The notes below the pieces were generated by a model. The model was not told where the DNA came from. It did no database searches and saw nothing but the letters and a program-made list of their open reading frames with translations. The position numbers were made by a program, and so were the translations under genes. A DNA stretch of 64,000 bases from Halosimplex rubrum (lineage in GTDB: Archaea > Halobacteriota > Halobacteria > Halobacteriales > Haloarculaceae), in NCBI RefSeq assembly GCF_013415885.1, contig NZ_CP058910.1, forward strand, positions 2,356,001-2,420,000, given 5' to 3'. This document shows positions 39,129 through 63,613 of the stretch, in pieces. Positions within the stretch are counted from its first letter, which is position 1; each line of letters opens with the position of its first letter.

Positions 39129-40502
39129 ATGTCAGACACTCCGCCGGGACCCAAGGGCGAGCCGCTGTTCGGGAGCAGTCGGCGCTACGCCCGGGACCCG
39201 TTCTCGTTCATCTCCGCGCTCGAGGAGACCTACGACGACGTGGTCAACTTCGATATGGGGCCGATGGAGACGTACATGGTCACCGACCCCACAGACGTCG
39301 AGCGGATCCTCGTCTCCGAGGCCGATTCCTACCGCAAGCCGGACTTCCAGAACGACGCGCTGGGCGACCTGCTCGGCGACGGACTCCTCCTGAGCGAGGG
39401 CGAGACCTGGGAACGCCAGCGCGAACTCGCGAATCCGGCGTTCCGGATGTCACGACTGATGGGGATGGCCGACCGCGTCACGAACCACGCCGAGTCGATG
39501 GTCGACGCGTGGGAGCCGGGCGACACCGTCGACGCCGAGACGGAGATGGCCCGCGTGACCCTGAACGTCATCCTCGATCTGATGATGGGCGTCGAGCTCT
39601 CCGCGTCGCGGGTCGACACCGTCCAGAACCAGCTCGACCCGCTCGGGCGGCGCTTCGAGCCCGACCCGCTCAGATTCGCGATGCCCGACTGGGTGCCGAT
39701 GCCCGGCGACGAGGAGTTCGAGACGGCGGTCGCCGAACTCGATTCGGTGCTCGACGACATCGTCGCGGCGCGGCGGGGCGACGGCGGGGTCCGCGGCGTC
39801 TCGACGGTGGTCGACTCGCCAGCGGCGGACGACGGCCCGCCGATGGACTTCCTGTCGGTCCTCCTGCGCGCGCAGGACCGCGGCGAGCAGTCCGCCGAGC
39901 TGCTCCGCGACGAGATGATGACGATGCTGCTCGCGGGCCACGACACCACCGCGCTGACGCTCACCTACACGTGGTTCCTGCTCTCGGAACACCCCGAGGC
40001 CGAACGCCGCGTCCAGGCGGAAGTCGACGAGGTCCTCGACGGGGACCGTCCGAGCATGGACCACGTCCGGGAGTTCGAGTACCTTGACTGGGTGATCAAC
40101 GAGGCGATGCGGCTGTACCCGCCCGTGTTTACGATCTTCCGTGAGCCCACCGAGCCCGTGGAACTCGGCGGCTACCGCGTCGACGCGGGGTCGACGCTCA
40201 TGCTCCCCCAGTGGGGCGTCCACCGTTCGGGCCGGTACTGGGACGACCCGGAGGCGTTCGACCCCGGGCGGTTCAGTCCCGAGCGCCGCGACGATCGGCC
40301 GCGGTTCGCCTTCTTCCCGTTCGGCGGCGGCCCGCGCCACTGCATCGGCAAGCACCTCTCGCTGCTGGAGGCCAAACTCATCGTCGCCACCGTCGTCTCC
40401 GAGTACGAACTCGACTTTCAGGGGGAGACGCCGCTGGAACTGATGCCGTCGCTGACGATGCATCCCCGGCAGACGATGGAGATGGAACTCGTCGAGCGCT
40501 GA
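39129..40502 (+). CDS. cytochrome P450
   Basis: A 457-residue soluble P450 monooxygenase. It has the oxygen-activating helix I motif LLAGHDTTALT, the E-x-x-R pair in NEAMRLYPP, and the heme-thiolate loop FFPFGGGPRHCIGKH with Cys405. The sequence resembles fatty-acid or terpenoid hydroxylases of the CYP102/CYP174-like haloarchaeal group, but the substrate cannot be stated. No ferredoxin or reductase gene is adjacent, so electrons must come from elsewhere. A TATA-like GATTCATACC at about 39096-39105 gives a leaderless start. Confidence 0.93.
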   Translation: MSDTPPGPKGEPLFGSSRRYARDPFSFISALEETYDDVVNFDMGPMETYMVTDPTDVERILVSEADSYRKPDFQNDALGDLLGDGLLLSEGETWERQRELANPAFRMSRLMGMADRVTNHAESMVDAWEPGDTVDAETEMARVTLNVILDLMMGVELSASRVDTVQNQLDPLGRRFEPDPLRFAMPDWVPMPGDEEFETAVAELDSVLDDIVAARRGDGGVRGVSTVVDSPAADDGPPMDFLSVLLRAQDRGEQSAELLRDEMMTMLLAGHDTTALTLTYTWFLLSEHPEAERRVQAEVDEVLDGDRPSMDHVREFEYLDWVINEAMRLYPPVFTIFREPTEPVELGGYRVDAGSTLMLPQWGVHRSGRYWDDPEAFDPGRFSPERRDDRPRFAFFPFGGGPRHCIGKHLSLLEAKLIVATVVSEYELDFQGETPLELMPSLTMHPRQTMEMELVER

Positions 40503-40526
40503 CGCGGTCCGCCGAGCCGCACCGGG

Positions 40527-40578
40527 CGCCTACTCCGTGCGGTCGAGCGCAGGTCGCCTACTCCGTGCGGTCGAGCGC
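40527..40578. repeat. 24-bp direct repeat over the Nudix stop codon
   Basis: The 24 bases beginning CGCCTACTCCGTGCGG occur identically at 40527-40550 and 40555-40578, four bases apart. The right copy contains the last codons and TAG of the Nudix gene (minus strand), so the left copy is a duplicated, untranslated gene end. Confidence 0.9.
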
Positions 40579-41121
40579 CGCCCGCCCCTCCTCGACCCAC
40601 CACTCCGGACGCTTGTACGACTCCGGCCAACTGGTCAGCAACCGGTCGTCGGCCGCCGCGAGTTCGGCGGGCGTCCAGAAGCGGGCTTCGGCCACCTCGT
40701 CGTCCGCCTCGGGGGTCCCGGACACGTCTCCGTCGTCGACGGCGTAGCAGAGATACGTCTTCTGCACGTCGCCGAACTTCGCGAACGTCCGCGCGTCGAA
40801 CAGCACGAGGTCCCCGGGGTCGACAGTCAGCGTCGTCTCCTCCGCCAGTTCGCGAGCCCCAGCCACGTCGGGGTCTTCGCCCGCTTCGACCATCCCGCCG
40901 GGCGTTCCCCACAGGTCCCGGTCGGCCGCGTCGACCTTCACGAGGAGGAGGCTCGCGCGTTCCCCCTCGCTCGCGCCGTCGAGGACCGCGACCCGCGCGG
41001 TCGGGATCGGGTTGTAGAACTCGTACTCGCCGCAGTCGCCGCAGTGCTGGACCGCCGGCGGGTCGACCGGCTCCAGTCGCCCGCCGCAGTTCGGGCAGTA
41101 GTCGGGCGGCGTGTTCGGCAC
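40558..41121 (-). CDS. Nudix hydrolase with N-terminal zinc ribbon
   Basis: A 187-residue protein. Four cysteines in YCPNCGGRLE and HCGDCGEYEF (about residues 8-35) form a zinc ribbon. The Nudix box is GGMVEAGEDPDVAGARELAEET with the catalytic R-E-x-x-E-E, hydrolysing nucleoside diphosphate derivatives; the zinc ribbon resembles NADH pyrophosphatase-like members. The start is GTG 41121; a TATA-like GCGTTAGGTGG (about 41145-41155, minus strand) fits it. The C-terminus lies within a direct repeat that duplicates its stop region. Confidence 0.88.
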   Translation of the reverse strand: MPNTPPDYCPNCGGRLEPVDPPAVQHCGDCGEYEFYNPIPTARVAVLDGASEGERASLLLVKVDAADRDLWGTPGGMVEAGEDPDVAGARELAEETTLTVDPGDLVLFDARTFAKFGDVQKTYLCYAVDDGDVSGTPEADDEVAEARFWTPAELAAADDRLLTSWPESYKRPEWWVEEGRAALDRTE

Positions 41122-41189
41122 AGGGGGATCTCCGGCGGCCGTCCACCTAACGCTACGGGGTCGGGCGCGCGGGCGGCGACCGCCCCGGT

Positions 41190-42140
41190 TCACCGGTTGC
41201 GGCTCACCGGGAACTTCACGCGGTCGGGATGCTCGTTGAACTCGGCGAGGATCCGCTCGTAGAGCTCGTTTTTCGTCCGCTGGCCCCGCCGCGGGTGGAC
41301 GATGTACCGCAGGCGGAGTTTCACCCACGACCCCTCCTGGGAGACGTTGACCGTCGGCTGGGACTGGACTTCGAGTTCCACGGGCGTCTCGGCCAGTCGC
41401 TCGCGGTAGCGTTCGACGCTGCGGGCCATCCCCTCGCCGACCACGTCCTCGGCGACCGCGACCATCCGCTCGCGGGCAAAGGCGAGGTCGGTCTCGTAGG
41501 CCACCTCGACGGCCACCTCGTTCCAGACGAACGGGAACTCCTCGCGGGTGAAGTTCGTCACGTGCGCCGAGAGGACGACGGAGTTCGGGACGGTGATCGT
41601 CCGGCCCGACGGCTGGTTCGAGGAGACCAGATCGCCGTTTATCTCCCACAGCGTCGTCACGAGGAAGTTCACCTCGACCACGTCGCCCTTCGAGTCCTCG
41701 ATGGCGACCCGGTCGCCGACCTGGTAGGGGCGGTTGACCATGATGTACACCCAGCCGATCAGCGAGAAGAGCGGCTGCTGGAGCGCGAAGGTGACCGCGA
41801 ACCCGACGACGCCCAGCGAGAAGAGGACGCCGACCCACTGTTCGGTGACGACGCCGGCCAGTCCGACGGTCCCGATCAGCCCGAAGGCCAACCGGAGGAC
41901 GTTGCGCAGGTCGTGGCGGCGGCGTTTGCTCTCCGCCCGATCGGTGAGCCAGCCGCCGACCACGCGGTAGGCGCCGTAGGTCGCGAGGACGACCGCGGCC
42001 GCCAGCAACCCGGTGACCGCCGCCCGCTCGACCGAGACGCCCCAGACGCTGCCGAACTCGACCGTCGCGGCCGCCACGAACCGACTCGCCACCCCTGCGA
42101 CCGCCGCAGCGGCCAGCGAGGCCTGCCCGACCCGTCGCAT
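41190..42140 (-). CDS. mscS: mechanosensitive ion channel, MscS family
   Basis: A 316-residue small-conductance mechanosensitive channel. Two to three N-terminal helices are followed by the pore-lining helix region LFSLGVVGFAVTFALQQPLF and the start of the beta domain with YQVGDRVAIEDSKGDVVEVN and ITVPNSVVLSAHVTNFT, all typical of MscS. It would release solutes on osmotic downshift, relevant to a salt-in organism. The ATG at 42140 is favoured by a TATA-like GAACTTAGTGA at about 42165-42175 and by hydrophobicity beginning soon after it. Confidence 0.9.
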   Translation of the reverse strand: MRRVGQASLAAAAVAGVASRFVAAATVEFGSVWGVSVERAAVTGLLAAAVVLATYGAYRVVGGWLTDRAESKRRRHDLRNVLRLAFGLIGTVGLAGVVTEQWVGVLFSLGVVGFAVTFALQQPLFSLIGWVYIMVNRPYQVGDRVAIEDSKGDVVEVNFLVTTLWEINGDLVSSNQPSGRTITVPNSVVLSAHVTNFTREEFPFVWNEVAVEVAYETDLAFARERMVAVAEDVVGEGMARSVERYRERLAETPVELEVQSQPTVNVSQEGSWVKLRLRYIVHPRRGQRTKNELYERILAEFNEHPDRVKFPVSRNR

Positions 42141-42257
42141 CTGCCAGTCCGCTCGCGGCCCCGTCACTAAGTTCCCAGGGGTCGGCCGCGTCGCCGCGCG
42201 CTCGCGGCAGTGCCCGGCTCGCTCCGTCGCGCCGTCGTCGGTAACCCGTTCGGTACG

Positions 42258-42267
42258 CCTTTTATTC
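42258..42267 (+). promoter_or_regulatory. TATA-like box for the peroxiredoxin gene
   Basis: CCTTTTATTC lies about 29 bases before the ATG at 42292, so the promoter of this interrupted gene still looks intact. Confidence 0.5.
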
Positions 42268-42291: not shown

Positions 42292-42765
42292 ATGGTTTCC
42301 ACTGGCGAATCCGCACCCACGTTCACCGCGACGCTCGGCACGAGCGACCACGAGGACTTCGATCTCGCCGACCACCTCGGCGACGGCCCGGTCGTCCTCG
42401 CCTTCTTCCCCGGCGCGTTCACGCCGCCGTGTACCAACGAGATGGTCGCCTTCCAGGAGCGACTCGACGACTTCCGGGGCGCCGGCGCGAAGCTCTTCGG
42501 CGTCAGCGCCGACTCGCCGTTCTCCTAGGGCGCGTTCCGCGAGGAGCACGGCATCGAGTTCGACCTCGTCAGCGACATGGACGGCGACACCATCGAGGCC
42601 TACGGCCTGACGATGGACATCCCCGACCTGGGCCTGTACGGCAACGCCAACCGCGCCGTCTTCGTGATCGACGACGGGGGGACCGTCGTCTACGACTGGG
42701 TCGCCGACGACCCGACCGACGAGCCCGACTACGACGCCGTCCTCGACGCCGTCGAATCGGCCTGA
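42292..42765 (+). pseudogene. peroxiredoxin interrupted by an in-frame TAG
   Basis: The reading frame encodes an AhpC/Bcp-type peroxiredoxin: MVSTGESAPTFTATLG at the start and the peroxidatic motif PGAFTPPCT (Cys47). Codon 79 is TAG (42526-42528), directly after VSADSPFS. The same frame then continues as GAFREEHGIEFDLVSDMDGD and ends normally at 42763-42765. Homologues usually have glutamine here, so a single C-to-T change (CAG to TAG) explains it. The two halves are otherwise undamaged and the promoter is intact, pointing to recent loss, a sequencing error, or rare readthrough. A normal length would be about 157 residues. Confidence 0.85.
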
Positions 42766-42805: not shown

Positions 42806-43114
42806 TCACACCCGCTCGCGCGCCGCCGGCCCGACCACCGGGAACTCGAACGCCGTCCCGTTGTACGCCGTCAGCATCGCCACCACCCAGACGACCGGCA
42901 CCACGTCGAAGTACAGGAACGGGACGAACAGCGCTGTCGGGAACAGCGCGACAAGCGCGATTCCCAGATAGATGCTCTGGAGCGTGTGGAACGGATCGCG
43001 CTCGGCCGGGTCGGTGACGTATCGGATCACGAGCCCGCTCACCGGCATCGCGAGATACGACAGCGCCGCCAGCGTGCGCCTGCTCCGCGCCCGCTGGTCG
43101 GCCGCCTCACTCAT
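42806..43114 (-). CDS. DUF4870-like small membrane protein
   Basis: A 102-residue protein with a charged N-terminus and three hydrophobic helices: LAALSYLAMPVSGLVIRYV, IYLGIALVALFPTALFVPFL and VWVVAMLTAYNG. The H-x-x-Q-S segment FHTLQSIYLG is the hallmark of the DUF4870/Tic20-like family of membrane proteins of unknown function. It lies downstream of nuoN on the same strand with a 135-base gap, so it may share the nuo transcript or have its own promoter. Confidence 0.75.
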   Translation of the reverse strand: MSEAADQRARSRRTLAALSYLAMPVSGLVIRYVTDPAERDPFHTLQSIYLGIALVALFPTALFVPFLYFDVVPVVWVVAMLTAYNGTAFEFPVVGPAARERV

Positions 43115-63399: not shown

Positions 63400-63417
63400 T
63401 CGATGAAGCCGCGGCTA

Positions 63418-63430
63418 CCCCCTTAACTGG
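63418..63430. promoter_or_regulatory. shared TATA-like core for two divergent genes
   Basis: CCCCCTTAACTGG contains CTTAAC/GTTAAG readable on both strands. It lies about 30 bases from both the ATG at 63455 (plus) and the GTG at 63399 (minus), so a single AT-rich core may serve both. Confidence 0.4.
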
Positions 63431-63454
63431 TTCGGCCCGGTAGGTGAGAGCGCA

Positions 63455-63613
63455 ATGGTCGCAATCGACGAAACCACCCTCGGCCTCGCGTTCGCCGTCC
63501 TCGGCGTCGTGTTCTCGATCGCGTGGCTCGCGCTCGGGCTGTACGGCATCAACTCCCTCCGGGAGATCCGGTCGGCGCTCGCCGACGACGACGCGGACGG
63601 TAACGGCTCGTAG
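63455..63613 (+). CDS. 52-residue single-span membrane protein
   Basis: The gene encodes MVAIDETTLGLAFAVLGVVF and a further 32 residues: a membrane helix (about 9-30), then a short positively charged segment NSLREIRSALADDD and an acidic tail. No family is recognised. It is divergent from the HTH regulator, sharing its promoter core, and convergent with the CbiX-like gene. Confidence 0.68.
   Translation: MVAIDETTLGLAFAVLGVVFSIAWLALGLYGINSLREIRSALADDDADGNGS

Follow-up and report, generated by a model that had tools for sequence, protein, structure and literature searches.

The window, i.e., the whole stretch of 64,000 nucleotides analysed here, carries a peroxiredoxin gene whose reading frame begins with an ATG at position 42292, meets a TAG at codon 79 and runs on in the same frame to a TGA at 42763-42765, as is evident from both the sequence and its translation. 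This TAG is the only stop within the frame, the remainder of which is open. The host is a member of Halosimplex whose genome comprises 4,480,147 bases in a single contig. The features of the locus are the following, where "other rows" refers to the 104 homologues aligned with this gene:

42292..42765, + strand: AhpC-TSA/BCP-type peroxiredoxin gene, 157 codons plus stop, with an in-frame TAG; one frame, both halves matching Pfam AhpC-TSA, genus orthologues open in 7/7 cases
42526..42528, + strand: premature TAG, codon 79; CAG (Gln) in 7/7 genus orthologues and Q, L or H in the 104 homologues
42430..42432, + strand: codon 47, putative peroxidatic Cys, 5' of the stop; C in 104/104 other rows
42652..42654, + strand: codon 121, conserved Arg, 3' of the stop and absent from the truncated product; R in 104/104 other rows
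42248..42266, + strand: conserved upstream box GTTCGGTACGCCTTTTATT, promoter candidate; GTTCGGT in 8/8 and TTTAT in 7/8 genus upstream regions (by eye)
42806..43114, - strand: neighbouring gene, function unassigned, 102 codons, open here, with a separate TAG, at a Gln codon, in the orthologue of genome G004

On the 5' side, at about 40500-42240 of the window, lie a frame with a NUDIX domain and the gene of a mechanosensitive channel; G004 has no match there, and genome G003 matches from 41190 on.

Taken separately, the two halves of the peroxiredoxin frame score 68.1 bits (N-terminal) and 32.2 bits (C-terminal) against AhpC-TSA (PF00578), each above the Pfam gathering cut-off of 26 bits, and in the alignment used for the tree all 157 codons correspond to alignment columns, with no homologue requiring an insertion. 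Therefore, the second half of the frame is not there by chance, and the preliminary description of this gene, which reported an in-frame TAG at codon 79 with both halves intact and a frame continuing to a normal end, was correct in both respects. It had also called the promoter intact, which holds in so far as the upstream box is conserved, and no further: the box (GTTCGGT...TTTAT) begins 44 bases 5' of the ATG and is common to the genus by eye, and we take it to be BRE/TATA-like. The cysteine at codon 47, presumably the peroxidatic one, is preserved as had been stated. The arginine at codon 121 has a putative catalytic role.

Comparison with orthologues and homologues

Codon 79 is CAG in the orthologues of all seven other genus genomes, each of which is open and terminates with TGA, TAA or TAG. 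Among the 18 matches in the eight genus genomes (E 1e-40 or better), an internal stop was found in one, the copy at 42292-42765. The same was observed at the family level, where a search with the second peroxiredoxin copy of the host genome (2,890,316-2,890,783) as the query at E 1e-60 or better retrieved 91 matches (the sum of the matches column) in 86 of 146 genomes, with an internal stop only in this copy. Likewise, none of the 104 other homologues in a 105-row alignment contains an internal stop; these rows retain repeats and paralogues, and the alignment leaves out two of 11 family loci (whose match lay elsewhere than expected), the three weakest peroxiredoxin-like places of the host genome and four loci repeating genus genomes. 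Of the 104 rows, 76 have Q at column 79, 26 have L and two have H, in agreement with the earlier remark that homologues typically have Gln at this position. Further conserved positions are P40 (103 rows), T44 (102), C47 and R121 (104 each), and a single cysteine is present in 103 of the 105 aligned rows. The premature stop thus falls where close relatives carry a sense codon, which is the pattern of a nonsense pseudogene. In contrast, the pattern of readthrough, a stop conserved among orthologues, is absent, the TAG being confined to one of the 91 family matches and to none of the seven genus orthologues.

Regarding the protein family, the intact G003 orthologue best matches the archaeal BCP-type peroxiredoxin structures 3hjp, 2ywn and 2cx3 (E 2.7e-33 to 6e-32), which, together with the PF00578 match in each half, gives a whole-gene match to AhpC-TSA/BCP. 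The relatedness to the archaeal BCP-type proteins (PDB 3hjp, Bcp-4; 2ywn/4g2e; 2cx3/4gqc) extends over nearly the full length of the orthologue, and the conservation of C47 and R121 and the predominance of a single cysteine are further points of likeness. The differences are that the copy at 42292-42765 is broken at codon 79, and that the G003 orthologue reaches the cut-off of no NCBIfam model.

Age of the lesion and the possibility of a sequencing error

To estimate how long the gene has been broken, a site was counted as private where a copy differs both from its tree neighbour and from each of the remaining six, with at least four of these six agreeing with the neighbour. G004 was taken as the tree neighbour with moderate support (SH-aLRT 93, not starred, in a quick tree). 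By this rule, the copy at 42292-42765 has three private derived sites, namely the stop, E129G and one synonymous change (codon 130), while the G004 orthologue has seven, five synonymous and two nonsynonymous. The copy departs from positions conserved at 90% or more only at residues 6 and 67, and a few relatives share both of these states. Three private changes are too few to gauge relaxed selection after the stop, and with no more than these the gene shows little decay. Judged from these comparisons, the lesion would be either very recent or an assembly error.

An error of sequencing or assembly, in which case the cell would have CAG and an intact gene, is the main rival to the reading as a pseudogene, and we regard it as unlikely without dismissing it. 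It would account for a single disruptive base in an otherwise barely diverged gene, and the search turned up no further strain of the species. A weak hint in the same direction is that the change creates the tetramer CTAG (window 42525-42528), which is rare in the window: it occurs seven times, where base composition would predict about 179. However, the assembly consists of one contig, with a listed completeness of 100% and a contamination of 1.08. Moreover, errors of long-read sequencing are mostly indels, whereas the change at codon 79 is a substitution. A comparison of the window with G004 and G003, in which 33 of 93 and 29 of 113 open frames, respectively, had a match, revealed no further conserved gene that was convincingly broken in the comparable part (about 31-64 kb), the other half of the window being without match in the compared stretches of these two genomes. 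The other hits of this comparison were judged to be shadow frames or start extensions, and candidate frameshifts, near 53.7 and 58.9 kb, seem to be open frames extended at their upstream ends rather than broken.

Readthrough and truncated products

If the TAG is real, the encoded product would be an incomplete peroxiredoxin, barring readthrough of the UAG. Amber suppression or programmed readthrough, by which UAG would be read as an amino acid to yield the full-length enzyme, is consistent with the conservation of the downstream half and with a column 79 that tolerates Q, L and H. Nevertheless, we consider it highly improbable because the machinery was not detected. Among 57 tRNA hits in the host genome, 56 typed by ARAGORN and one, located in a tRNA array, read as UGU by eye, none has a CTA anticodon (the input to ARAGORN was the hit loci rather than the whole genome, so that a very odd tRNA might escape), and the same is true of G004, in which 45 of 45 tRNA hits were typed. 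The pyrrolysyl-tRNA synthetase model (PylS_Cterm, TIGR02367) gave no hit in the host genome and none over the cut-off in the eight genus genomes, with a weak match of 20.4 bits in G007 against a cut-off of 178 bits; in this search, one of 14 controls passed the cut-off, presumably Methanosarcina. The search proposed in the preliminary description for a suppressor tRNA and pylS thus returned neither. Separately, we observed an array of 14 tRNAs identified by ARAGORN, plus one Thr-like tRNA identified by an Rfam hit, at C1:2,778,897-2,785,042, which looks virus- or plasmid-borne and whose anticodons are also present elsewhere in the genome.

TAG also serves as a working stop in this genome, which argues against its reassignment. 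Over 384 kb that take in the window and its surroundings, 59 of 299 genes from a crude call end with it. Two frames of the window close with TAG at a place where a relative uses TGA, namely the DUF7527 gene (TGA in G003) and a small open frame at 63407-63610 (TGA in G004). Against G004, a census over 244 and 237 gene comparisons found 21 stops with conserved flanks, 13 TGA, seven TAG and one TAA, from a crude gene caller and without curation, many of the hits being judged shadow frames or wrong starts. Three of these seven TAGs, including one in the G004 orthologue of the neighbouring gene, lie opposite Q, a point in favour of suppression in a census that shows only that TAG does not dominate. 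According to a review (PMC8211752), readthrough of stops in archaea has been demonstrated for selenocysteine and pyrrolysine only. The pyrrolysine genes of methanogenic archaea covered there resemble the present case in having an in-frame UAG within a conserved frame, but here there is no PylS hit and no CTA tRNA, and the stop is not conserved between species.

An initial hint of recoding came from the very next gene (42806..43114), which has no Pfam match and was found in four of the eight genus loci within the stretches compared. In the tree neighbour, an in-frame TAG stands at a Gln codon of its orthologue (G004:C1:875,011), and the sequence on either side of this stop is conserved. We rejected this as a sign of amber recoding on account of the missing CTA tRNA in G004 and the presence of the gene in only four of eight loci, and take it as a second ordinary loss. 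Moreover, a nonsense change from CAG to TAG would arise easily where GC content is high.

Another option raised in the preliminary description was a useful short product. The stop would then yield a functional N-terminal protein of 78 residues or, in a variant of this idea, a downstream start would yield a functional C-terminal one. P40, T44 and C47 do precede the stop and the upstream box is conserved. However, C47 and R121 no longer lie in one polypeptide: the N-terminal product lacks R121, invariant in the other rows, together with the second half of the domain, and the next in-frame ATG is codon 96, so that a product starting there would lack C47. A function of either piece is therefore unlikely as far as the sequence can tell, and such a truncated architecture is absent from all other matches examined (those of the family search and the 104 rows). 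We give this explanation very little weight.

The acquired second copy and the probable loss of the resident gene

Besides the gene in the window, the host genome contains seven further peroxiredoxin-like places, none with a stop. The second copy (2,890,316-2,890,783) is open, is 67% identical to the window copy and branches within its large clade. At the thresholds applied, the seven other genus genomes (of which G007 is only 71% complete) gave no counterpart, and their next best places reach 49-52% identity and cluster with copy 3. In contrast to the 69% GC of the window copy, the second copy has 54% and sits in a 60-kb region of 55-62% GC, adjoining a universal stress protein (USP) gene and a DDE transposase. 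By eye, a similar GTTCGG...TTTA box lies upstream of it. A nearly identical copy is encoded on a 138-kb contig of G060, a genome from another genus of the same family, with 99% protein identity and 455 of 468 identical bases. The shared segment is arranged as follows:

C1:2,889,511-2,893,336: USP-peroxiredoxin cassette, then about 1.6 kb with the DDE transposase, then an 820-base block; shared with G060 contig 4

The DNA common to the two genomes spans about 1.4 kb including the USP gene, at 91-95% identity. The 820-base block, 99% identical, follows directly in G060, whereas in the host about 1.6 kb with the DDE transposase intervenes. Given the 99% protein identity to a copy in another genus, the second copy is a recent horizontal acquisition. 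None of 24 viral contig stretches matching a pattern encodes a relative of it. A literature search by titles found no paper on the gene at 42292-42765 or on the sequencing of this genome, and the intact second copy beside a USP gene and a transposase is a new observation here.

Taken together, we interpret 42292-42765 as a very young nonsense pseudogene of ordinary cause, with a probability of about 0.8. Of the four options that had been listed without a choice among them, recent pseudogenisation is the best supported by the stop, the intact orthologues and the little decay, and both amber suppression and a useful N-terminal product are disfavoured. Under this interpretation, a resident, vertically inherited peroxiredoxin gene would have been inactivated very recently by one C-to-T transition, changing Gln79 from CAG to TAG. 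The broken gene would presumably still be transcribed, and the 78-residue fragment, unable to form the active site after the loss of R121, would probably be degraded. The cell presumably tolerates the loss thanks to its other peroxiredoxins, chiefly the acquired copy, whose upstream box is similar and which can plausibly stand in for the window copy.

Point mutations to in-frame stops have been listed as one way in which haloarchaeal genes are disrupted (PMC4500146), and disrupted genes number over 300 per genome in Haloquadratum walsbyi (PMC3119063). Our case resembles those described there in that a conserved gene is broken, its homologues are intact and an in-frame stop is a listed process, and differs in being very young, with one lesion only.

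The acquired copy may have made the old one redundant and so caused the relaxation, although this causal link is a hypothesis. In G060, which has this cassette too, three further stop-free copies are retained; therefore, the cassette need not lead to loss, which speaks against such a link. A fuller version of the idea is xenologous replacement, in which a mobile cassette of USP and peroxiredoxin genes, equipped with a similar promoter box, arrived from another genus and took over the role of the resident peroxiredoxin, and the resident gene was just lost by its first nonsense mutation, before any other decay. We propose this only tentatively, as it is possible but doubtful.

The significance of the pseudogene reading is mostly one of annotation: 42292-42765 should be flagged as a probable pseudogene, and its TAG should not be cited in support of haloarchaeal recoding. 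If the replacement scenario were true, this locus would illustrate, cleanly and on a small scale, how a resident stress gene is lost right after the arrival of its mobile equivalent.
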